Assembly: GCA_030653935.1 (NCBI GenBank)
Contig: JAURYL010000081.1
Coordinates: 1 to 34,561 of the forward strand
Direction of reading: 5' to 3'
Source of the DNA: Pseudomonadota bacterium
Lineage (GTDB): Bacteria > Pseudomonadota > Gammaproteobacteria > Burkholderiales > Thiobacillaceae
Length of the DNA stretch: 34,561 nt
Made by a program: the position numbers and the translations under genes
In this document: in pieces, positions 5,249-29,107 of the stretch
How the letters are laid out: every line of letters begins with the position of its first letter
How positions within the stretch are numbered: position 1 is the first letter of the stretch
The notes under the pieces: generated by a model
What the model saw: only the letters and a program-made list of their open reading frames with translations
The model's database searches: none
What the model was told of the DNA's origin: nothing

Positions 5249-5512
5249 ATGAGTGAAGACAGCCTGATCGAATATCCCTGCGACTTTCCGATCAAGGTCA
5301 TGGGTGTCGCCAAAGATAACTTCGCCCAGGCCATGGTGGAAATCGTCCTTCGCCACGCCCCCGATTTCGCCGCCGATACCGCGGAATTACGCGCCTCCAG
5401 CGGCGGCGCCTATGTCTCCGTCACCTGCACCATCCACGCCGTCTCGCGCGAGCAACTGGACAACCTCTACCGGGAACTGAGCGGCCACCCGGCGGTGAAG
5501 GTGGTGTTGTAG
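5249..5512 (+). CDS. ybeD: YbeD-like DUF493 protein
   Basis: An 87-residue protein of the DUF493/YbeD family, with the typical start LIEYPCDFPIKVMGV, the central GGAYVSVTCTIHA strand and the LYRELSGHPAVKVVL ending. YbeD has an ACT-like fold and is found between dacA and lipB in E. coli, so the position after a DacA-type gene is a conserved arrangement; its function is not settled. lipB/lipA do not follow here. The TAG stop is part of the REP-like element that begins at the end of the gene. The start ATG lies 2 nt after the dat stop. Confidence 0.88.
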   Translation: MSEDSLIEYPCDFPIKVMGVAKDNFAQAMVEIVLRHAPDFAADTAELRASSGGAYVSVTCTIHAVSREQLDNLYRELSGHPAVKVVL

Positions 5513-5567
5513 CGCCGGCATCCTTGCCGGCGTCTTTTAAAACAGCCGGCTGGAAGCCGGCGCTACA
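5509..5567. repeat. REP-like palindromic element, copy 2
   Basis: TGTAGCGCCGGC head, GCATCCTTGCCGGCG arm, a TCTTTTAAAACA spacer, then the GCCGGCTGGAAGCCGGC arm and the GCTACA end. It is the same subtype as copies at 15025 and 27662, and as the inverted copy at 15591. It supplies the stop codon of the ybeD-like gene and separates it from convergent rdgC. Confidence 0.88.
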
Positions 5568-5570
5568 AGT

Positions 5571-15024: not shown

Positions 15025-15082
15025 GTAGCACCGGCTACCCGCCGGCGTCTTGTAAAACAGCCGGCTGGAAGCCGGCGCTACA
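15025..15082. repeat. REP-like palindromic element, copy 4
   Basis: GTAGCACCGGC head with a variant left arm (CTACCCGCCGGCG), a TCTTGTAAAACA spacer and the GCCGGCTGGAAGCCGGC arm. It lies between the protease gene and the start of the DUF255 gene; its left end is 11 nt from that gene's start codon, next to its ribosome binding site. Confidence 0.83.
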
Positions 15083-15092
15083 GGGGAGAGCC

Positions 15093-15587: not shown

Positions 15588-15590
15588 TTG

Positions 15591-15649
15591 TGTAGCGCCG
15601 GCTTCCAGCCGGCTTTGTTAAAGACGCCGGCAAGGATGCCGGCGCTACA
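15591..15649. repeat. REP-like palindromic element, copy 5 (inverted orientation)
   Basis: TGTAGCGCCGGCTTCCAGCC arm first, then TTTGTTAAAGA, then the GCCGGCAAGGATGCCGGC arm and GCTACA. It is the reverse complement arrangement of copies 2 and 7 and lies between dut and the protease gene. Confidence 0.87.
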
Positions 15650-15657
15650 GTGGCTGT

Positions 15658-17753: not shown

Positions 17754-17781
17754 AAACCTGGAGGGTTGATCGGGTGGACCA

Positions 17782-17851
17782 GTAGCGCCGGCGTCTCGCC
17801 GGCTCTTTGGCCTGATCGGTGGAACGAAGCCGGCGAGACGCCGGCGCTACA
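17782..17851. repeat. REP-like palindromic element, copy 6
   Basis: GTAGCGCCGGCGTCTCGCCGGC arm, spacer with CCTGATC, inverted arm GCCGGCGAGACGCCGGC and GCTACA. It is the same subtype as copies 1 and 3. It lies upstream of the GNAT gene; the stretch 17852-17970 holds no gene that I can recognise. Confidence 0.88.
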
Positions 17852-17971
17852 GGCACATCCCTACGGCGGCCACGCGGATTCCCCAAATGGTGGGCGTCCT
17901 CATGGCATCCAGTGTCTATGCGATATCCCGGTGACCAGGGCGCAGTCAACCGCGACTGTGTTGCGCTTAAT

Positions 17972-18005
17972 AAAACAAAAGGCCGCTTCTTTTTAAAGCG
18001 GCCTT
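17972..18005 (-). terminator. Rho-independent terminator after the partial ahcY copy
   Basis: Read on the minus strand, a ten-base stem AAGGCCGCTT/AAGCGGCCTT with a seven-base loop, followed by a T-rich run. It lies about 40 nt past the stop of the ahcY fragment and so would end transcription of the island operon. Its sequence differs from the terminator of the intact ahcY. Confidence 0.85.
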
Positions 18006-18042
18006 CGGTGCTAAAGCTGGCTTTAATTTGCAGCCATGCCGA

Positions 18043-18305
18043 TCAATAGCGGTAATGCTCCGCCTTGTAAGGCCCGGTCTTGGGCACGCCGATGTAGGCG
18101 GCTTGCTGGTCAGTCAGTTCGCTCAGTTGCGCGTTGAGCTTCTTCAATTGCAGGCGCGCGACCTTTTCGTCCAGGTGTTTCGGCAGCGTGTAGACGCCGA
18201 CCGGGTAACGCTCCGGATGCAGGAACAGTTCGATCTGGGCGATGGTCTGGTTGGCGAAGCTGGAGGACATCACGTAGGACGGGTGGCCGGTGGCGCAACC
18301 GAGGT
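18043..18305 (-). pseudogene. ahcY: Partial second copy of ahcY (3' end only)
   Basis: About 263 bp encoding the last 87 or so residues of adenosylhomocysteinase, through KAEHYRY and a TGA stop, with no 5' part. It is nearly identical to the 3' end of the intact copy (25370-25632). The differences I count affect about six codons and the stop codon, each in the third position and synonymous (His, Tyr, Thr, Lys, Thr, Gly; TGA versus TAA). Similarity ends abruptly one or two bases from the stop codon of the neighbouring DUF4435 gene. It is a remnant marking one edge of the inserted cassette. Confidence 0.93.
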
Positions 18306-18306
18306 C

Positions 18307-19200
18307 TCAGGCATTATTAGACGCGGCCACCGACTCGACGAACGAAACCAATTCAAGCGGAATCCTTGCCATTTCCTTAATTCGATTTGCCAGCAAACCC
18401 TTCATGTCGGCATTTATCCCGTGAACATTGGAAAAACGCATCAAAAGGGCCTTGCCATGAACCCGCCTCAGCAAGCCATCGACTCGAAGTCCTGAGGGCG
18501 CTCCCGGCACATCAAAGGCATCGACTTTGGCGACTTGCTGTGCATATTCCACAGTGGCATTGAGTGCAACAGGTGAAATCCTTGGAAGCTGCTGCGAATT
18601 AATGGCGGTGTTGATCGCCGCCCGAGAGGGAAACCGCGTAACCCATCCGTCTCCCACCGCGTCCATTTTGTAGGTGTGGCACAGCGCGTTGAAGGCGGCA
18701 TGTGGAACCAAAATCTGGCAATGATCCAGCAATTCATCCTGAACCACAGGCACAGGCCTGGCCTGGTCCATTTTTATCTCGGCTCGGCATTTTTCCATCG
18801 CACCGACATCGGCCAGATAACTCTCCATCTCCCAGCGCCGAAGCGTTTTTATTTCTGGGCCGAAAGGTTTTGCCTTTTCGAAGAGATCGTCATCTGTCTC
18901 ATGGACCAAGTCCCACCTGTCTTGGCTCATGACGGCATCCCGGTCCACGATGCCCCAAGCTGGGTTACCAGCGCTTCGTTCCTCGCCCACGGCCCTGAGA
19001 ACTGCATTACAACCTGCAAATCCTCCGCAATGGCTGGCGGCGGATCGGAATTCCACCCTGGATAGTTGCTCCTTGAACCAGCACTCACCAAATACGTAAT
19101 TGTCCTCGTCGGACTCGACGAAGATGACCGGCACTCCACCGTACCGTGAAGACAGCCGCTCCGGTGCACCCAGAACCGGCTGGGATTTGACCACTCCCAT
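18307..19200 (-). CDS. DUF4435/TOPRIM-like protein (AriB-like), last gene of the dnd island
   Basis: A 297-residue protein resembling the DUF4435 family, whose members pair with AAA ATPases in anti-phage systems. The TOPRIM-like metal residues appear as E29 in VIFVESDEDNY and D86-R-D88 in GIVDRDAV, followed by the TLRRWEMESYLAD segment (E124, E126) typical of the family. In PARIS, AriB is a DUF4435 nuclease held by the ATPase AriA; this pair is similar in layout, though homology to AriB itself is inferred. It starts 2 nt after the ATPase gene. Its stop lies one or two bases from the ahcY fragment, so the C-terminus may have been set by the insertion. Confidence 0.68.
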   Translation of the reverse strand: MGVVKSQPVLGAPERLSSRYGGVPVIFVESDEDNYVFGECWFKEQLSRVEFRSAASHCGGFAGCNAVLRAVGEERSAGNPAWGIVDRDAVMSQDRWDLVHETDDDLFEKAKPFGPEIKTLRRWEMESYLADVGAMEKCRAEIKMDQARPVPVVQDELLDHCQILVPHAAFNALCHTYKMDAVGDGWVTRFPSRAAINTAINSQQLPRISPVALNATVEYAQQVAKVDAFDVPGAPSGLRVDGLLRRVHGKALLMRFSNVHGINADMKGLLANRIKEMARIPLELVSFVESVAASNNA

Positions 19201-19202
19201 AG

Positions 19203-20447
19203 TTACCCCCCTTGGTTTTGTTCGTGTTCGCCAGAATTCACCGACCAGTTCCTTTCTGCGGCAGCCTTGGCAATGGCTTCCGCTTTGTCCTCTTCCTCTG
19301 CCGTTTCGATGATGTAAGCACCTTTACGCAGATTCTCCTCGCGGATATTGAGTGCAAAAGCCTTCATCATGCGTTCCGAATGCGTCGCGATGAATACGCC
19401 AACATTCGGGAAATGGGATGCGGCGAGCTTGAACAGGGCATACAGCGTTTCGTATTGCATGTTCCGATGCAGATGAACCTCGGGTTCATCGATCAGCAGA
19501 ATGGTGTTGCGGGTCATGTGCGCCCCCAGGCGCAGATAAAGCTGGACGAGGCTTTTTTCACCACTGGAAAGTCGATCTAGCCGATGCTCCTCCCCGCCAG
19601 CCTCGATGATCGCTTCGGGCGGTTCCTTACGGACACCTTTCAGGCGCTTGCCGGCATAGAGCTGCTTATCGCCCACGAAAAATACCCGTTTGTTGATCGC
19701 CTCCACTGCCGCCTCATAGCGGCCGTCATCCAGCCATTTCAGCCAGACCAGCAGGTTGTCGAGGGAGTCACGCCAATCCCGCCCTTCGACGTCGAAAATA
19801 TGTACCGGCCGGTAATTCCAGTCACGGGGCGCGACGATGGCACGGTCATCGGCGGGCATACGGATGATGTTGCGGTAGGCCGAAAAATAAATGAGTGTCG
19901 GGAAAGTCAGCTCATCACTCTCGAAACCCGAGAGTCGCTCGCCGATGCTGTTCTGGATCAGGATGTTGAAATCCTGTACCCACTCATCGCCACGGCCCAC
20001 CATGCTGTAACGGCCAAAAGCGTTGCGCACGAAGCCGAAACGACACCAACGGCTGGCACCGTATTTGCGCAAATCGGACTCGCCCCAGAGCTTCAAAGAA
20101 GATTCCTCGCCCATCGCGCCCGCCAGCAGCGACAGGATCACCGTCTCCTTACGTCCACCCCGGTTGATAGTGAGACGGACATCCCATTGGGCGCGTCCCA
20201 ATTCCCGGTCGAACGACTCGAAATCCAGGCTTGAGCATTCGGTCTTGCCGAGCATGTTCATCATCGCCGCCATCATTTCCATGACGGTGGTCTTGCCCCG
20301 GCCATTCTTGGAAATCATCAGGTAGACATTGCAGGGCTCGTCGTTGGAATCCGTGAAATCGAATACCTCCATGCGCTCCTGGAACGGTCCTACCCGATCG
20401 ATGGATAGGAACAGGGGTGAAAATTCGTCGATCAGAATATTCATCAT
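19203..20447 (-). CDS. AAA/ABC-type ATPase (AriA-like), dnd island
   Basis: A 414-residue SMC/ABC-like ATPase. Walker A is ISKNGRGKTT near residue 50 (with Ser where Gly is usual at its first position), the signature motif is RLSSGEKSLVQLYLRLG near 297, Walker B is TILLIDEPEVHLH near 320 and the switch histidine is in FIATHSERM. There is no long coiled coil, so it is closer to the AAA15/AAA21 defence ATPases than to DndD. AGGAGG lies seven bases before ATG 20447; the frame upstream runs into the FtsK gene and is not used. It lies 2 nt from both neighbouring genes, which suggests a stoichiometric partnership with the DUF4435 protein. Confidence 0.8.
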   Translation of the reverse strand: MMNILIDEFSPLFLSIDRVGPFQERMEVFDFTDSNDEPCNVYLMISKNGRGKTTVMEMMAAMMNMLGKTECSSLDFESFDRELGRAQWDVRLTINRGGRKETVILSLLAGAMGEESSLKLWGESDLRKYGASRWCRFGFVRNAFGRYSMVGRGDEWVQDFNILIQNSIGERLSGFESDELTFPTLIYFSAYRNIIRMPADDRAIVAPRDWNYRPVHIFDVEGRDWRDSLDNLLVWLKWLDDGRYEAAVEAINKRVFFVGDKQLYAGKRLKGVRKEPPEAIIEAGGEEHRLDRLSSGEKSLVQLYLRLGAHMTRNTILLIDEPEVHLHRNMQYETLYALFKLAASHFPNVGVFIATHSERMMKAFALNIREENLRKGAYIIETAEEEDKAEAIAKAAAERNWSVNSGEHEQNQGG

Positions 20448-20449
20448 CG

Positions 20450-21919
20450 TCAGCCCTCCTTGGACATGCGCCGCAGCATGGATTCCACATCTGCCGGCAG
20501 GATGCGGAATCCATGCACCCGCTCCACCTTGCCGCCCAGCCATTTGGCCAGCATGTCGCCTTTACCCAACAGTTTGTCGGCCCCCGCTTCGTCGAGAACG
20601 ATGCGGGAGTCGGCGGCTTTTTGCACTGTCAAGGCAATGCGCGAGGGGATATTGGCCCGCAACAGGCCACTGAACGTGGCGGCATCGGGACGCTGGGTGG
20701 CCAATACCAAATGGATGCCCGCCGCACGCGCCTTCTGTGCCAATAGAACCAGTTGGTCTTCTGCTTCCGGTGCTTGGGCGATCAAAGAGGCAAGTTCCTC
20801 GACCACGACCACGATGCGTGGCGGCGCGGCATCTCCCAGTTCGCCCAATTCCCGCACGCCGCGCGAAGACAGCAGTTTTTCCCGCCCCTCCATTTCCTTC
20901 ACCAACCCTTTGAGGGCGCGGGTTGCATCAGGCCCCTCGACCACAATCGGGGCCAGCAAATGCGGTGCACCCTGGTAAGCGGCGAATTCCACGCGCTTGG
21001 GGTCGATCAGCAGCAATTGCAGGCGGTTGGGGCCACGCGAGATCAGCAGAGACAACAACATGGCGTGCAGGCAAACACTCTTGCCACTACCGGTCGTGCC
21101 GGCCACCAAGACATGGGGAGCCTCGACGAGGTCGCGCACGACCGGAGTTCCGGCAATGTCCACGCCCAACAGCAGCGGCAGCCCCTGGGTGGGGGCATTC
21201 CATGCAGCCAGGCTTTCCGCGCCCAGGTGCGTCCATTTCTCTTGCGGCCGGGGCACATCCAACCAGACGGTCTTGGGTTCGCCTGCGGGCGCAAGAAACA
21301 CACCGGCATCCTTGAGGCCCAGGGTAAACGCCAAGTCGTCCAGCTTACGCTCCAGCCGGCCGTAGTCTTCGGCATCCGCCAAGCGGACGCTGTAACGAGT
21401 GACGCGGGGGCCTTCCAGGCTTTGCAGAATCTCGGCGACCAAACCGAATTCTTCCAGGGCCTGTTGCAGGCCAACCGCATTCGTAACCGGTGTAGTACCC
21501 GCATCGCCCATCAGGGCGAAAAATTCCTGATACAAAAACTCATGGAAATCATGGGATTCCCGCCAAGTTGCCTGTATCTCCCGAAGCCCGCGCCGGATAT
21601 GCCGCTGCATGTATCGCGCGTATTGCGCATCATCGCCGAACAAATCCTGCTGGTGATAAGCCGACAGCAGAGCGCGAAAGGCATCCACGAACCCATCCGG
21701 CTCCTTCTGGCTCTTTCCCGTCAGGACATCCAGAGTGTATTCGCCATCCTTGCTGCCTTCGAGGCTGTCGAAAGCCTCATCCGGCGGGGTGGATTGCTTG
21801 AGCGACAAGGCCAAGGCCACCCGCAACACCGTCCACTTATGCCCCTGGGCCATAAAGCCCTTGCGCAATACATGGACGATGGTGTCCTCGTCGCTTCGAG
21901 AGGTATAGACCTTGGCCAT
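20450..21919 (-). CDS. DndE-like domain fused to an FtsK/SpoIIIE-type DNA motor
   Basis: A 489-residue protein. Residues about 1-115 resemble DndE (KWTVLRVALALSL; YTLDVLTGKSQKE; HIRRGLREI), the small DNA-binding subunit of phosphorothioation. Residues about 245-489 are an FtsK/SpoIIIE motor: Walker A GTTGSGKS (274-281), LLLIDPKRVEFAAY, Walker B region RIVVVVEELASLI, LATQRPD, and DSRIVLDEAGADKLLGKGDML. In the Walker B region the usual Asp is Glu. There are no FtsK membrane segments and no gamma domain. Its ATG shares a base with the dndD stop. It probably supplies DndE function plus translocation; the DndE assignment is by pattern and is less sure than the motor. Confidence 0.78.
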   Translation of the reverse strand: MAKVYTSRSDEDTIVHVLRKGFMAQGHKWTVLRVALALSLKQSTPPDEAFDSLEGSKDGEYTLDVLTGKSQKEPDGFVDAFRALLSAYHQQDLFGDDAQYARYMQRHIRRGLREIQATWRESHDFHEFLYQEFFALMGDAGTTPVTNAVGLQQALEEFGLVAEILQSLEGPRVTRYSVRLADAEDYGRLERKLDDLAFTLGLKDAGVFLAPAGEPKTVWLDVPRPQEKWTHLGAESLAAWNAPTQGLPLLLGVDIAGTPVVRDLVEAPHVLVAGTTGSGKSVCLHAMLLSLLISRGPNRLQLLLIDPKRVEFAAYQGAPHLLAPIVVEGPDATRALKGLVKEMEGREKLLSSRGVRELGELGDAAPPRIVVVVEELASLIAQAPEAEDQLVLLAQKARAAGIHLVLATQRPDAATFSGLLRANIPSRIALTVQKAADSRIVLDEAGADKLLGKGDMLAKWLGGKVERVHGFRILPADVESMLRRMSKEG

Positions 21920-23955
21920 CAGTAATAACCCCCCTGTTCAACTCGGGTATGGTCGCCTTCCAGGTTGACCAGATGGTATTCCCGATAAACGTGAGGTTGG
22001 ATCAAGGCGTATTTCTCCCTATCCAGTTCGGAATCCGTCGGCAACACGATGACCTGCGGGCCGGCCTTGGGGTAATAGCGGGTGAGCAGATTTTCCTGGT
22101 GTTGCCGGTCGATCCGCGCCAAGGGGGTGTCCACCACCACCGGAGCCTCCCGGCCAGAGACGTCTTTCAAGCCCCACAACAAGGCCTGGGCCACCAGTTG
22201 TTTCATGCCGGCGGAGATATTGCCCATGCCCACCGGCTGTTCGTACGCATCCAGGTAGTGCAAGGAAAAGTCTTCATTCACCCGGATGTTCCGGATCAGG
22301 CCGTGGGAGGTCATCAGTTCGCCAAATCGGCTGTTGATGGCCGCTTCGATGTCTTCACGCCGCCTTGCTTTCAACAGGGAGCGGTAGGCTTCCAACGCCT
22401 TGGATAAACGCTGGCCAATCTTCAGCTTATCGCCTGCGGCTCTGGCGTCACCGAGGCGTTTTTCCAGTTCTCGCAAGCGGTCCCGCGTGGCATTCTGCTC
22501 GCGGATGAGCACCGTCTTTTGCTCACCCAGGCCACCGATGCGCCGCTCCAACTCACTCTTTTTGTCATCAAGGCTCGCCCGCTCGGCCATGCGCTCCTCG
22601 AACAGTTGCCGCTCTTGCGGCGCCAGATTGGAGACATCGTTGCGTTTGCGGTCGATTTCCAGCAGTTCCGCCTTCAGACGACGGATTTCCACCAGATCGC
22701 CGGCCCACTGGCTGCGTTTGCGCTGGTCGTGCCGGTAATCCTCGATCACCTTCAGCACACCCTCCGCCTTCATGGGGGCCAGATGGAACAGGCCGGAAGC
22801 CATGTCCTCCGGTTCGGGTTGATAACTGTCCAACACCCGCACCAGTTTTCGCCGCAGAAATTGGTCCTGCTCCGGGGTCAGGGACGGCACCGGCAAGGGT
22901 GGGTCGGTGAACAGGCGTTCCGGCAGTGCCGTGAATATCTTGGACAACTCATCCTTGAGCCGTCGATTCGGGTGGGCCGCGATCTTCTCCAATTCGTGCG
23001 AAGCGGCACCCAGCAGCGTCGGCAGCACGGCCAGAGGCGCGTCACGGGTAAAAACCTCGAAAAAGGCGGAGGTGCGCTCCTCTAGGCGGCCCACCACCCC
23101 TTCCCGCTTTGCCGCCAACTGGGCCTCTTCACTCTGCAAGGCGAACTGGCGCCGGGCCTGCAAGGCCACATCCAGACGTTTGATGGTGTATTCCGTTTCG
23201 GCGATTTCCTCTTCCAGCCCCTTTTGTTCGCCGTTCAGCCCGGCCAGCTTTTCCTCACTGGACTGGATTTCCAGTTTCTCGAAATTGATTGCATGCTGGC
23301 TGGCATCGTTGGATTCGCGCCTCCAGGTAGTCAGATTCTTGCCCAGGTATTCGTTGACGACGTCGATGTCCGCCAGATCGAGCAATTGCTCGATCTGGTG
23401 CATCTGACCCTCGCGGTTGGCCTCGGCCATCTGCTGAACCCGCTCGCCGTCATAAATAAAGAACGGCATTACAGCCTCTGGCAGCCGGCTCTGAATGAAC
23501 GAACGCGCCTCCCCTTCGACATCCCCATTGAAGTCCTCCATAAGCTCGCCGAAGTCGGGGGTGACGCGGAGGATCTCTTCCACACCCTCTTTCACCAGGG
23601 TCCAGGAACGTTCCACCTTGACCGTGCCGGCGGCCTCCCGCCATTCCAGTTCGACCCCGAACACCTTTTCTCCGGCGGCGCGGGCCTGACGATTGAAGAT
23701 GCCGATCCATTCCTCGCCCATGCCCAGGAGGTAGTGGTCGCGTTTGAAGTTGCGGCCGCTATGCACCCCCGCGCGCAGTTCATCCGACACGCCGGTCAAC
23801 AACAGCTTGAGGCTGTTGAGGAAGCTGGTCTTGCCATAGCCGTTGCGGCCCCAGATCAGCAGCACATTGCGCTCGTCATCCACCGGCCTCAGGTCGAATT
23901 CGCAGGGGCCGTAGTAAGAGAACAGGTTATGGATGCGGAAGCGTTGAAGAATCAT
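21919..23955 (-). CDS. dndD: DNA phosphorothioation ATPase DndD
   Basis: A 678-residue SMC-like ATPase of the DndD type. Walker A is IWGRNGYGKTSFLNSLKLLL (from about residue 35), followed by the DndD-like PFFIYDGERVQQMAE near 170. Coiled-coil stretches run through about 210-290 and 410-540. The C-terminal head has NISAGMKQLVAQALLWGL (signature) and PVVVDTPLARIDRQHQENLL (Walker B and D-loop). DndD hydrolyses ATP during sulfur insertion and is thought to nick or remodel DNA. It overlaps dndC by 4 nt and the DndE/FtsK gene by 1 nt. Confidence 0.88.
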   Translation of the reverse strand: MILQRFRIHNLFSYYGPCEFDLRPVDDERNVLLIWGRNGYGKTSFLNSLKLLLTGVSDELRAGVHSGRNFKRDHYLLGMGEEWIGIFNRQARAAGEKVFGVELEWREAAGTVKVERSWTLVKEGVEEILRVTPDFGELMEDFNGDVEGEARSFIQSRLPEAVMPFFIYDGERVQQMAEANREGQMHQIEQLLDLADIDVVNEYLGKNLTTWRRESNDASQHAINFEKLEIQSSEEKLAGLNGEQKGLEEEIAETEYTIKRLDVALQARRQFALQSEEAQLAAKREGVVGRLEERTSAFFEVFTRDAPLAVLPTLLGAASHELEKIAAHPNRRLKDELSKIFTALPERLFTDPPLPVPSLTPEQDQFLRRKLVRVLDSYQPEPEDMASGLFHLAPMKAEGVLKVIEDYRHDQRKRSQWAGDLVEIRRLKAELLEIDRKRNDVSNLAPQERQLFEERMAERASLDDKKSELERRIGGLGEQKTVLIREQNATRDRLRELEKRLGDARAAGDKLKIGQRLSKALEAYRSLLKARRREDIEAAINSRFGELMTSHGLIRNIRVNEDFSLHYLDAYEQPVGMGNISAGMKQLVAQALLWGLKDVSGREAPVVVDTPLARIDRQHQENLLTRYYPKAGPQVIVLPTDSELDREKYALIQPHVYREYHLVNLEGDHTRVEQGGYY

Positions 23956-25295
23956 GACGTAGTTGCCTGCTCCGCTTGTTGTGCAGCCTTCTTGACCAAG
24001 TCGCCAACGGCACGTTCAAAGCCCGCCTTGGCGCCCCACTTTGCGAGGTCTGGATAATTCCGGCGGCGTATATCCAGCACCTGGCGGATCAATTCCGGGT
24101 TCAGGTCGGACTCGATGGCCACCTGTTCCAGCAGGTCGTCTTCCGGGTGGTTCAAAAGATCTTGTTTATCGGGCATGGCGATGGCCCTCCCATGTTTCGC
24201 GGCAATGCCGCATGCCAGATCGTTTTGGTAGTCGAATTCTCGCGACCACTCCTGCTGAATGTAAAGCAACTCTTCGTCGCCGATGAGGGGCAGCCCTACC
24301 TTTATTTCCAGGGCCAGCAGCTTGTCCAGGATTTCCTGGCGCGCCGCAGGCAGGAAGGGGCCAGGACCGAGCAGCCTGTTTCGCTTGACCTCGCTGCGAT
24401 AGCCCGGCTTGTCACGCAGGGTGATCAACCAGTCGCGAAATTCGACCAAGGGCTGCAATTGTTCCTCGCCCGAGCGGATGAAGCCTTGTAACGATTTGTC
24501 TTCCTTGACCACAGTACAGGTCCAGCAGCCGAAGCGGCTGCCACCACAGGAAGGGGTATTCAGGTCGAAGATCACCGGGCACTCGCCACCACTTGCCTGC
24601 CGGTAAAGAGAGAAGAGAAAACCATGATCGCTGCCCCAGGGGCAGGGATGGGTGGTCAGATATTCCCAGACATCCTCGGTGGTCCAGTCCGCGATGGGGG
24701 TGGACACCAAGGCATTGGGAATTTCGTGGTGGGGGTTCAGTCCGCGACTGTTGATGTCACGCGCTTGCATGGTGCGACCACGTTGGGCGCTTTCGGCGAG
24801 GCGGGTGCCCAGCAGCAGGATGACGCTGCCATGCTGCCGGGTGATGTTTTCGATGGCTCGCCGAGAGGGTTTGATCTTCATGTTGCTGGTACACCAGCGG
24901 AACCAGCGAGAAGGCGGGGGATAGCCCCTGCCGATGAGTTTGCCCCAATAGCTTTCTTCCGGCGTCGGCCTGACCAGTTCCGTGACCAGAGGTAGCCCGA
25001 GTGCCAGGACTGACTGGTGTATGCGGTCAATTGTGGCGGAGACAAAGGCGGCCACATTCGGTGCTTCCACCTGGGTGTCGGAAGACAGCACCACGACCTG
25101 CTTGGTAGCGCGTTCTCTTAACCCCAGCAGCATGTTGAAGACGAGCTGCAGCAGTGCCGTGGAATCTTTGCCACCGGAAAAGGCAATCACCCAAGGCCGG
25201 TTGTCGGCGAAATACAGTGATTCCAGTTGAGTAATTGCTGCGTCCGCCAAGGACTGGCTAGTGGCTGGTGTGGCGTTTGCTGGCAGACTGGTCAT
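23952..25295 (-). CDS. dndC: DNA phosphorothioation protein DndC
   Basis: A 447-residue PAPS-reductase-like protein. The PP-loop SGGKDSTALLQ lies at 40-50; further landmarks are VLSSDTQVEAP, RWCTSNMKIKPSRRAI (C135), ADWTTEDVWEYL, and a cysteine cluster C239, C250, C257 and C260 (PSCGGSRFGCWTC) that should hold the 4Fe-4S cluster. DndC activates the DNA backbone with ATP and receives sulfur from a cysteine desulfurase. No dndA is nearby, so a chromosomal IscS may serve. GGAGG lies seven bases before the ATG. It is the first gene of the five-gene operon. Confidence 0.92.
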   Translation of the reverse strand: MTSLPANATPATSQSLADAAITQLESLYFADNRPWVIAFSGGKDSTALLQLVFNMLLGLRERATKQVVVLSSDTQVEAPNVAAFVSATIDRIHQSVLALGLPLVTELVRPTPEESYWGKLIGRGYPPPSRWFRWCTSNMKIKPSRRAIENITRQHGSVILLLGTRLAESAQRGRTMQARDINSRGLNPHHEIPNALVSTPIADWTTEDVWEYLTTHPCPWGSDHGFLFSLYRQASGGECPVIFDLNTPSCGGSRFGCWTCTVVKEDKSLQGFIRSGEEQLQPLVEFRDWLITLRDKPGYRSEVKRNRLLGPGPFLPAARQEILDKLLALEIKVGLPLIGDEELLYIQQEWSREFDYQNDLACGIAAKHGRAIAMPDKQDLLNHPEDDLLEQVAIESDLNPELIRQVLDIRRRNYPDLAKWGAKAGFERAVGDLVKKAAQQAEQATTS

Positions 25296-25312: not shown

Positions 25313-25349
25313 AAAGAAAAAGGCGCCGAACTTAAAGCTGCTCGGCGCC
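25313..25349 (-). terminator. Rho-independent terminator after ahcY
   Basis: On the minus strand, an eight-base stem GGCGCCGA/TCGGCGCC with a twelve-base loop followed by TTTTTCTTT. It lies 20 nt past the ahcY stop codon. The T-run ends only about six bases before the ribosome binding site of dndC, which leaves almost no room for a promoter between the two. Confidence 0.88.
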
Positions 25350-25369
25350 CACGACATACAAGAGGTTGC

Positions 25370-26797
25370 TTAGTAGCGGTAGTGCTCCGCCTTGTAAGGC
25401 CCGGTCTTGGGCACGCCGATGTAGGCGGCTTGCTGGTCGGTCAGTTCGCTCAGTTGCGCGTTGAGTTTCTTCAATTGCAGGCGCGCGACCTTTTCGTCCA
25501 GGTGTTTCGGCAGGGTGTAGACGCCGACCGGGTAACGCTCCGGATGCAGGAACAGTTCGATCTGGGCGATGGTCTGGTTGGCGAAGCTGGAGGACATCAC
25601 GTAGGACGGGTGGCCGGTGGCGCAGCCGAGGTTCACCAGGCGGCCTTGGGCCAGCAGGATGATGCGGTGGCTGGGTTTGCCATCAACCTCGGGGAAGATG
25701 ACATGGTCGACCTGGGGCTTGATTTCTTCCCACTCGTACTTTTCGATGCCGGCGACGTCGATTTCGTTGTCGAAGTGGCCGATGTTGCAGACGATGGCCT
25801 GGTCTTTCATCTTCGCCATGTGGTCATGGGTGATGACGTGGTAGTTGCCGGTGGCGGTGACGCAGATGTCGGCCTTGTCGGCGGCGTAATCCATGGTGAC
25901 CACACGGTAGCCTTCCATCGCGGCCTGCAGGGCGCAGATCGGGTCGACCTCGGTGACCCAGACCTGGGCGGAGAGGGCGCGCAGGGCCTGGCAAGAGCCC
26001 TTGCCGACGTCGCCGTAGCCACAGACCAGCGCGACCTTGCCGGCGATCATCACGTCGGTGGCGCGCTTGATGCCGTCCACCAGCGATTCGCGGCAGCCGT
26101 AGAGGTTGTCGAACTTGGACTTGGTGACGGAATCGTTGACGTTGATGCCGGGGAACTTGAGTTCGCCGCGCTCGTGCATCTGATACAGGCGATGCACGCC
26201 GGTGGTGGTTTCCTCGGTCACGCCCCTGATCTGGGCGAGGCGGGTGGAATACCAGGTCGGGTCCGTCGCTACCTTGGCCTTGATGGCGGCGTAGAGGATG
26301 GTTTCTTCCTCGCTGGTCGGCTGGGCGACAACGCTGATGTCCTTTTCGGCGCGGGCACCCAGGTGCAGCAGCAGGGTGGCGTCGCCACCGTCGTCGAGGA
26401 TCATGTTGGAGTAACCACCGTCCGGCCACTCGAAGATGCGGTGGGTGTAATCCCAATATTCGGTGAGCGACTCGCCCTTCACGGCATAGACCGGGATGTT
26501 CATGGCGGCGATGGCGGCGGCGGCGTGATCCTGGGTGGAGAAGATGTTGCACGAGGCCCAGCGCACTTCGGCGCCCAGCGCGGTGAGGGTTTCGATCAGC
26601 ACGGCGGTCTGGATGGTCATGTGCAGCGAGCCGGTGATGCGCGCGCCTTTCAGCGGCTGGCTGGCGGCGTATTCCTCGCGGATGGACATGAGACCGGGCA
26701 TTTCCGTCTCGGCGATGCGGATTTCCTTGCGACCCCAGGCGGCCAGGGCCATGTCGGCGACTTTGTAGTCGGTAAAGTTTGTAGCCACAGCGTTCAT
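25370..26797 (-). CDS. ahcY: Adenosylhomocysteinase
   Basis: A 475-residue NAD-dependent hydrolase that splits S-adenosylhomocysteine into adenosine and homocysteine, removing the inhibitor of methyltransferases. Landmarks are [32 protein letters not shown], the NAD-binding [16 protein letters not shown], and the C-terminal EHYRY. Length fits the proteobacterial type with the extra insertion. ATG 26797 has AAGGAG about six bases upstream; the frame continues upstream without similarity. An SAH riboswitch precedes it. The 3' 260 bp are duplicated at 18043-18305. ArsM, DNA methylases and MetK-dependent reactions all feed this enzyme. Confidence 0.96.
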
Positions 26798-26879
26798 GCG
26801 AACTCCTTGAACTTGCGGCCGGGAGAGGGGGCAAATGAGTGCGTACTCACCTGGCGCGCCCGTGCCCGGCACAGGTTGA

Positions 26880-27534: not shown

Positions 27535-27661
27535 GGCAACTCCGGTGGCGATAAGTGCAACCGGATTATGGGGTTCGGCCGGGAGGCGAACAAGCGCGTG
27601 AGCGCAGAGTAATCGGCCCGCAGCCGCAAATCGCGCCGAAGAAACACCGCCGATTCACTCC

Positions 27662-27720
27662 TGTAGCGCCGGCATCCTTGCCGGCGTCTTTAAAACAGCC
27701 GGCTGGAAGCCGGCGCTACA
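27662..27720. repeat. REP-like palindromic element, copy 7
   Basis: TGTAGCGCCGGCATCCTTGCCGGC, then GTCTTTAAAACA, then GCCGGCTGGAAGCCGGC and GCTACA; nearly identical to copy 2. The roughly 300-base stretch 27535-27840 holds this element and the terminator at 27792-27818, and no gene that I can recognise. Confidence 0.9.
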
Positions 27721-27791
27721 GGGGTGCGAAATGCCTCAGTAGAACCAATGGCTTGCAAGGTGTTTCTTGGGAGGGCCAGGGCCGGGAACCC

Positions 27792-28968: not shown

Positions 28969-28980
28969 GAAGGTGTTCCC

Positions 28981-29066
28981 TGTAGCGCCGGCTGATAAAG
29001 CCCCTGCCCTTCGGTAATCCTTGCCGGCGGGGTATAAAAAACGCCGGCAAGGATGCCGGCGCTACA
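28981..29066. repeat. REP-like palindromic element, copy 8 (long variant)
   Basis: TGTAGCGCCGGC head, an extra segment (TGATAAAGCCCCTGCCCTTC and following bases) and two inverted ATCCTTGCCGGCG arms around GGGTATAAAAAAC, ending GCCGGCGCTACA. It is longer than the other copies because of the inserted segment. Confidence 0.82.
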
Positions 29067-29107
29067 GTAGGGATTCGATTTTCAGCTGCGGGCCGCTGAC
29101 TTCGCTT

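Follow-up and report, generated by a model that had tools for sequence, protein, structure and literature searches.

We read the five-gene operon described here, with about even confidence, as a variant Dnd defence system with a guard of the PARIS type built into it, formed by its last two genes (g4 and g5). In the mechanism we propose, a housekeeping cysteine desulfurase would feed DndC, and DndC, DndD and the DNA-moving DndE-FtsK protein would together put phosphorothioate on self DNA, judging by what is known of these families. The g4 ATPase would detect some product or condition of the phage that obstructs or jams the Dnd machine, for example a DNA-mimic anti-restriction protein, and would then free g5, a putative TOPRIM nuclease, to cut tRNA or another nucleic acid so that the infected cell stops. 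In PARIS, as described in the consulted part of PMC12409363, AriA retains AriB until it is set free to cut tRNA by phage proteins, Ocr among them, and PARIS-like pairs have been recruited by BREX, according to the consulted part of PMC12839542.

Operon layout and the Dnd core

The initial annotation had described five near-touching minus-strand genes in one operon, and this was borne out: all five open reading frames are present at positions 18307 to 25295 of the window (the whole 34,561-nt stretch of DNA that was analysed), and adjacent genes either share 4 or 1 nt or are separated by 2 nt (Table 1). The g4 length was counted from a likely start that we chose; the mechanical open reading frame starts at 20543. 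Since the five genes fill the insertion in which they lie, no dndA, dndB or dptFGH is found inside it, as had also been claimed. Two cysteine desulfurase matches were located on other contigs of the same genome. DptF/DndF gave no match in 12 genomes, in a search with one Aliivibrio query and no positive control.

Table 1. Annotated features of the window, with the basis of each assignment.
Feature	Position	Strand	Length or location	Basis
g1, DndC-like sulfurtransferase	23952-25295	minus	447 aa	TIGR03183, PADLOC DndC, PP-loop motif
Fused small-protein part of g1	23991-24143	minus	residues 385-435, C-terminal	BLASTP and alignment
g2, DndD-type ABC ATPase	21919-23955	minus	678 aa	TIGR03185, PADLOC PbeC model
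g3, DndE-FtsK fusion	20450-21919	minus	489 aa	Pfam DndE and FtsK_SpoIIIE
g4, OLD/AriA/PtuA-type ABC ATPase	19203-20447	minus	414 aa	AAA_15, AAA_21, PADLOC
g5, AriB-like/DUF4435-like TOPRIM protein	18307-19200	minus	297 aa	invariant acidic columns, hhalign
Complete ahcY	25370-26872	minus	3' end (25370-25632) is the copy joined to the insertion	
Partial second ahcY 3' end	18043-18305	minus	other side of the insertion from the complete gene, 1 nt from the stop codon of g5	
Terminator-like hairpin	25321-25350	minus	after complete ahcY, before dndC	consensus scan; site number not above shuffles
Terminator-like hairpin	17978-18006	minus	after partial ahcY 3' end	consensus scan; site number not above shuffles
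REP-like repeat GCCGGCGCTACAG	50; 5507-5568; 8653; 15071-15083; 15590-15650; 17780-17852; 27661-27721; 28980-29067			

The first three genes had been named DndC, DndD and a DndE-like/FtsK protein. Family cut-offs were passed in support of these names, with the refinement that DndE and FtsK form a single fused protein and that a small protein is fused to DndC. The g1 product scored 353.8 bits against the NCBIfam DndC model TIGR03183 (cut-off 290.4) and matched the PADLOC DndC model at E 1.6e-121. Its PP-loop motif reads SGGKDS, which is kept in all 10 intact DndC proteins, and it has seven cysteines (135, 218, 239, 250, 257, 260 and 362). The C-terminal small-protein part matches a stand-alone 'DNA modification system-associated small protein' of Mesorhizobium (BLASTP 1e-7); it is missing from four other aligned DndCs, in whose operons it is a separate gene. 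The g2 product passed the NCBIfam DndD model TIGR03185 (266.2 bits, cut-off 245.85), and its best PADLOC model was PbeC (PDLC02738, E 2.8e-150). Assignment of g2 as a CxC/PbeC ATPase was ruled out, since its 678 residues include only one cysteine and so hold no cysteine pair for a Zn-hook. In g3, a DndE domain at residues 26-117 (Pfam PF08870, 30.6 bits against a cut-off of 25, E 4.3e-7) precedes an FtsK/SpoIIIE motor at about 240-462 (PF01580, E 5.9e-47), and the PADLOC SspH motor match reaches residue 462. The protein falls below the cut-off of the NCBIfam DndE model TIGR03184.

The operon entered the 3' end of ahcY as a 7.3-kb insertion, and on either side of it stands a copy of the same 263 bp, the two copies differing at 7 positions. 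Relatives of the same genus, such as G279 and G284, have a single ahcY and after it the window's left flank, so the insertion site is empty there. In G278, another species of the genus, a decayed copy of the operon lies at the same ahcY site (locus L051, contig C197, 1-1302). What it retains is the beginning of dndC, the end of g5 and about 22 bases of ahcY, after which other sequence follows; some 6.3 kb that would lie between dndC and g5 are absent. The junction common to the window and G278 suggests a fixed insertion point. No integrase or recombinase was found within the insertion. The window also contains a REP-like repeat, often in inverted pairs, with 13 matches at no more than one mismatch against 0.12 expected.

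The ATPase-TOPRIM pair

The last two genes had been described as an AAA/ABC ATPase and a DUF4435/TOPRIM-like protein. For g4 this held, with AAA_15 (2e-11) and AAA_21 (1.4e-10) both over the Pfam cut-off; all 13 g4 proteins carry a Walker A motif. PADLOC models for AriAB (9.9e-17), PtuA (1.3e-14) and AriA (1.4e-13) matched g4, and retron ATPases matched about equally; since PtuA and retron ATPases match as AriA does, family membership does not reveal the trigger or the target. For g5 the Pfam part of the claim did not hold: no Pfam family, DUF4435 included, matched at E of 1 or below. DUF4435 kinship did emerge from profile comparison, in which 14 g5 proteins aligned by hhalign with six DUF4435 proteins at a probability of 98%, or 94% once a bridging sequence was removed. 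That bridging protein, from genome G032, matches the g5 profile (3e-12), DUF4435 (7e-11) and AriB (1e-18). PF14491, the Pfam model itself, had no match in 117 genomes of the taxonomic family, among them the window's own, and matched in 7 of 229 genomes of the class.

Against the PADLOC AriB model the window's g5 reached only E 0.023, while 9 of the 13 g5 members scanned matched at 1e-3 or better (best 1.2e-11); the four below that level were the window, Sideroxydans, Mesorhizobium and G545 copies. Five acidic residues of g5 (E29, D33, D86, E124 and E126) are invariant in all 14 aligned members, and E29 is probably the counterpart of AriB E26, whose mutant does not cut according to the consulted part of PMC12409363. 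An OLD-type ABC ATPase adjacent to a TOPRIM gene, the arrangement that PARIS requires, is thus present in the window.

Structural searches added little. A profile of five g5 proteins hit no PDB chain at E of 10 or below, and AlphaFold2 models built on alignments of four sequences were of low quality (mean pLDDT 51.8 for g5 and 46.6 for g4), with g5 fairly confident at about residues 11-90; Foldseek of this poor g5 model against the PDB gave nothing at E of 0.001 or below. By tblastn, g5 had no match in plasmids or phages, and g4 (E of 1e-8 or below) had two hits among 72,556 plasmid records, each within a dnd locus. Viral scans returned no g4 relative and one weak DndD relative.

Conservation of the gene order

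A search for the five-gene order across genomes had been proposed, and here the order was traced through samples of plasmids and genomes. The first relative came from a plasmid of Mesorhizobium. Genome contigs, when scanned, yielded at least five loci among the 597 stretches listed, with Thiocystis, Sideroxydans and Humitalea carrying the operon; two of the listed loci (L041 and L042) were distant DndD relatives without the other genes and were dropped before counting. In the plasmid search with g3, the best 5 of 863 records with an FtsK-type match were opened. A DndD profile run on 398 genomes of the phylum gave 18 genomes with a match at E of 1e-25 or below, of which 11, the window's included, had a strong one (1e-81 or below). 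Four of the seven weaker matches were fetched and showed DndC and DndD with no pair, and all seven were left out of the counts, as were G217, where g5 matched weakly (E 0.0015), and the type-B loci of G354 and G356. The final set of 16 loci comprised the window, ten strong phylum matches and five named loci, including a copy with broken frames on a Rhizobium plasmid; many of the loci are from draft genomes.

The order DndD, DndE-FtsK, ATPase, TOPRIM was found in 15 of these 16 loci of the window's DndD type, with the pair directly after DndE-FtsK each time; the exception was G564. Within the 15, the G545 locus was pieced together from two contigs, and in G488 the contig stops within DndD. Recurrence at this frequency means that the arrangement is not due to chance, and the claim that the pair belongs with dnd genes stands for this DndD type. 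The pair occurred in none of the six examined loci that have DndE-FtsK with the other DndD type (type B). Two other genomes of the window's genus, G284 (L083) and G275 (L084), have a type-B operon of dndC, small protein, dndD and dndE-ftsK without the pair. The window's DndD type forms a single clade with 100/100 support (13 rows of a 25-row tree). Elsewhere in the family (117 genomes), five genomes had a DndD match at E of 1e-20 or below, and BLAST placed all of these with the other type. Pairwise distances of g2 to g5 over 11 loci were correlated for any of the six gene pairs (r 0.88-0.95, with 0 of 2000 permutations as high), a result that shared ancestry alone could give.

The operon occurs in unrelated surroundings; in G594, for example, it lies between a HisRS-like gene and purA. 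In Mesorhizobium and Humitalea, a module of small protein, DndD2, DndE-FtsK and the pair sits behind a separate DndC-DndD1-DndE. The reverse question, whether the pair usually occurs apart from dnd genes, had been named as a way to refute the link, and the link mostly survived it. With a profile of g5, homologues were detected in 12 genomes of a phylum sample of 398 (taken to be the same sample as for DndD, the two being described alike), and 10 of the 12 lay within the present five-gene type of operon, a proportion to be read with the fact that these ten are also rows of the profile, so that the search leans towards them. The two apart from dnd genes were in G443 and G543.

Natural variants lacking one half

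Each half of the operon has been found without the other. DndC was intact in 10 of the 15 loci in which its place was covered, the window's among them, and was interrupted in L106 and L034. In G447 and G545 it is gone except for the small-protein part. Its middle is deleted in G461, where a 210-residue remnant keeps SGGKDS and has no cysteine, and where the pair stays and the ATPase gene is also split. Since DndC is thus absent or gutted in 3 of 15 loci, not every carrier needs phosphorothioation. Elsewhere in the genomes of G447 (100% complete, contamination 2%) and G545 (draft, contamination 6%, locus on two contigs) nothing matched DndC at 1e-10; the same was true of G488, which says little because its contig ends before DndC's place. 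The other four genes of G447 and the three fully sequenced ones of G545 are all open and have a third-position excess like that of DndC-bearing relatives. Replacement of DndC by another modification enzyme in these two genomes was ruled out, their neighbouring genes being a pseudouridine synthase and a cation efflux protein.

The converse case is given by two genomes of one genus that are sisters in the DndD tree. G594 has DndC-DndD-DndE-FtsK-ATPase-TOPRIM-TusA, and G564 has the identical order without the pair on a contig that continues for 1.7 kb. Since its same-genus sister has the pair, it was probably lost in G564, as far as these sequences tell. In both, the last gene of the operon is the one for the TusA-like sulfur carrier (L105 13847-14131 in G594; L104 5324-5566 in G564). 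This gene also occurs in two type-B plasmid loci, L035 and L037; its product may be a sulfur donor for DndC. In G443 (L133 10175-12265), a stand-alone ATPase-TOPRIM pair close to g4-g5 was found with no dnd genes in 19 kb. It adjoins an FHA-domain gene and metabolic genes. More distant pairs without dnd genes occur in G543 (19 kb fetched) and G032.

Weighing the alternatives

These variants bear directly on what the pair does. The initial annotation had the last two genes replacing the restriction arm, and as worded this was unsupported: the pair exists without dnd genes in G443, G543 and G032, the core exists without the pair in G564, and G447, G545 and G461 keep the pair with DndC missing or gutted. 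We favoured a guard over this claim because the pair can stand alone and can be absent alone, as a self-contained guard allows for the G443 pair and the G564 core. The weak AriB match and missing Pfam family of the window's g5, together with the three further members that miss 1e-3, count against the guard. The almost invariable association of the pair with this DndD type would also suit a dedicated effector. The pair would then be the primary effector: DndD-DndE-FtsK would scan and pump DNA, meet sulfur-free sites and switch on g4-g5 as the restriction arm, which would destroy the invader or the cell. We consider this unlikely, yet it stays in play because the linkage is so tight (15 of 16 loci against 0 of 6 of type B). 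Also on its side are the lack of a DptF match in 12 genomes, from the search that had no positive control, and the Mesorhizobium and Humitalea modules, which sit behind a separate DndC-DndD1-DndE as a PbeBCD-like module might. An effector reading has difficulty with G564, where core and TusA are present without the pair, with the close pair in G443, and with the three loci that keep the pair while DndC is gone or gutted, since unmarked self DNA should trigger it there.

Those same three loci raise the prospect that some carriers live without phosphorothioation, the small protein, DndD, DndE-FtsK, ATPase and TOPRIM forming a stand-alone DNA-sensing suicide system to which DndC is an optional self-mark. 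That G447 and G545 lack DndC yet keep its small-protein part and open remaining genes, and that the G461 remnant lacks cysteines, argues for such a system. We nevertheless judge it quite improbable, as DndC is intact in most covered loci, the losses of G447 and G461 (those in the tree) fall within one clade and may be recent decay, the G461 ATPase gene is split, and the G545 locus comes from two contigs of a contaminated draft. A little less improbable, though still doubtful, is the view of the conserved unit as small protein, DndD, DndE-FtsK, OLD ATPase and TOPRIM, in which a DNA-moving sensor would be wired to a suicide nuclease, motor stall or capture would be the alarm, and phosphorothioation would be an optional self-mark dropped by some lineages. 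Finally, two unrelated defence modules might simply share an island with no joint function; the insertion in ahcY and the fact that the pair may be absent or alone are consistent with this. Against such cohabitation stand an order and strand that stay the same, with near-touching genes, in distant proteobacteria and unrelated surroundings, and the occurrence of both plasmid matches of g4 in dnd loci; we regard it as highly improbable.

Relation to known systems and significance

The window's operon resembles the Dnd module (DndACDE) in that its DndC, DndD and DndE domain lie over family cut-offs, and differs from it in the fusion of DndE to an FtsK motor and of DndC to a small protein, in having no dndA or dndB, and in the attached ATPase-TOPRIM pair. 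The DndE-FtsK fusion was already known: the Dnd subset of Rakesh, Aravind and Krishnan 2024 (PMC10853773) has, in the part consulted, a HerA/FtsK-DndE fusion beside a DndD-related ATPase. Unlike the present operon, that subset has no TOPRIM or OLD partner named in the text consulted, 'toprim' occurring twice in the main text, for primases and in one reference. No description of an OLD-TOPRIM pair with DndE-FtsK was found in the literature searched, which covered parts of the sources, and an earlier mention is possible.

With PARIS (AriA-AriB) the operon shares an OLD-type ABC ATPase adjoining a TOPRIM gene, and 9 of 13 g5 members match AriB, the window's copy only at E 0.023; pairs of the window's type are mostly fixed behind dnd genes and have diverged in sequence. 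The PARIS-like pairs of BREX (PMC12839542, consulted in part) likewise combine modification-based defence with an OLD-TOPRIM backup, the machinery being BREX there and Dnd here. PbeABCD/CxC-ATPase systems also have a small protein, an ABC ATPase and DndE in a row, and g2 fits the PbeC model best; unlike PbeABCD, the five genes include no HKD nuclease-helicase (PbeA, an HKD nuclease fused to an SF2 helicase), and unlike CxC-ATPases, g2 lacks the Zn-hook cysteine pair.

Of 3416 surveyed taxa with a Dnd-linked nuclease, only 806 had DndFGH, according to the consulted part of PMC10853773, which raises the question of what stops phage in the remaining taxa. A compact five-gene case, together with natural variants lacking either half, makes the question of phage arrest directly testable. 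If our reading of g4-g5 as a guard is true, Dnd-type modification systems, like BREX, would carry a PARIS-type guard against phage counter-defence.
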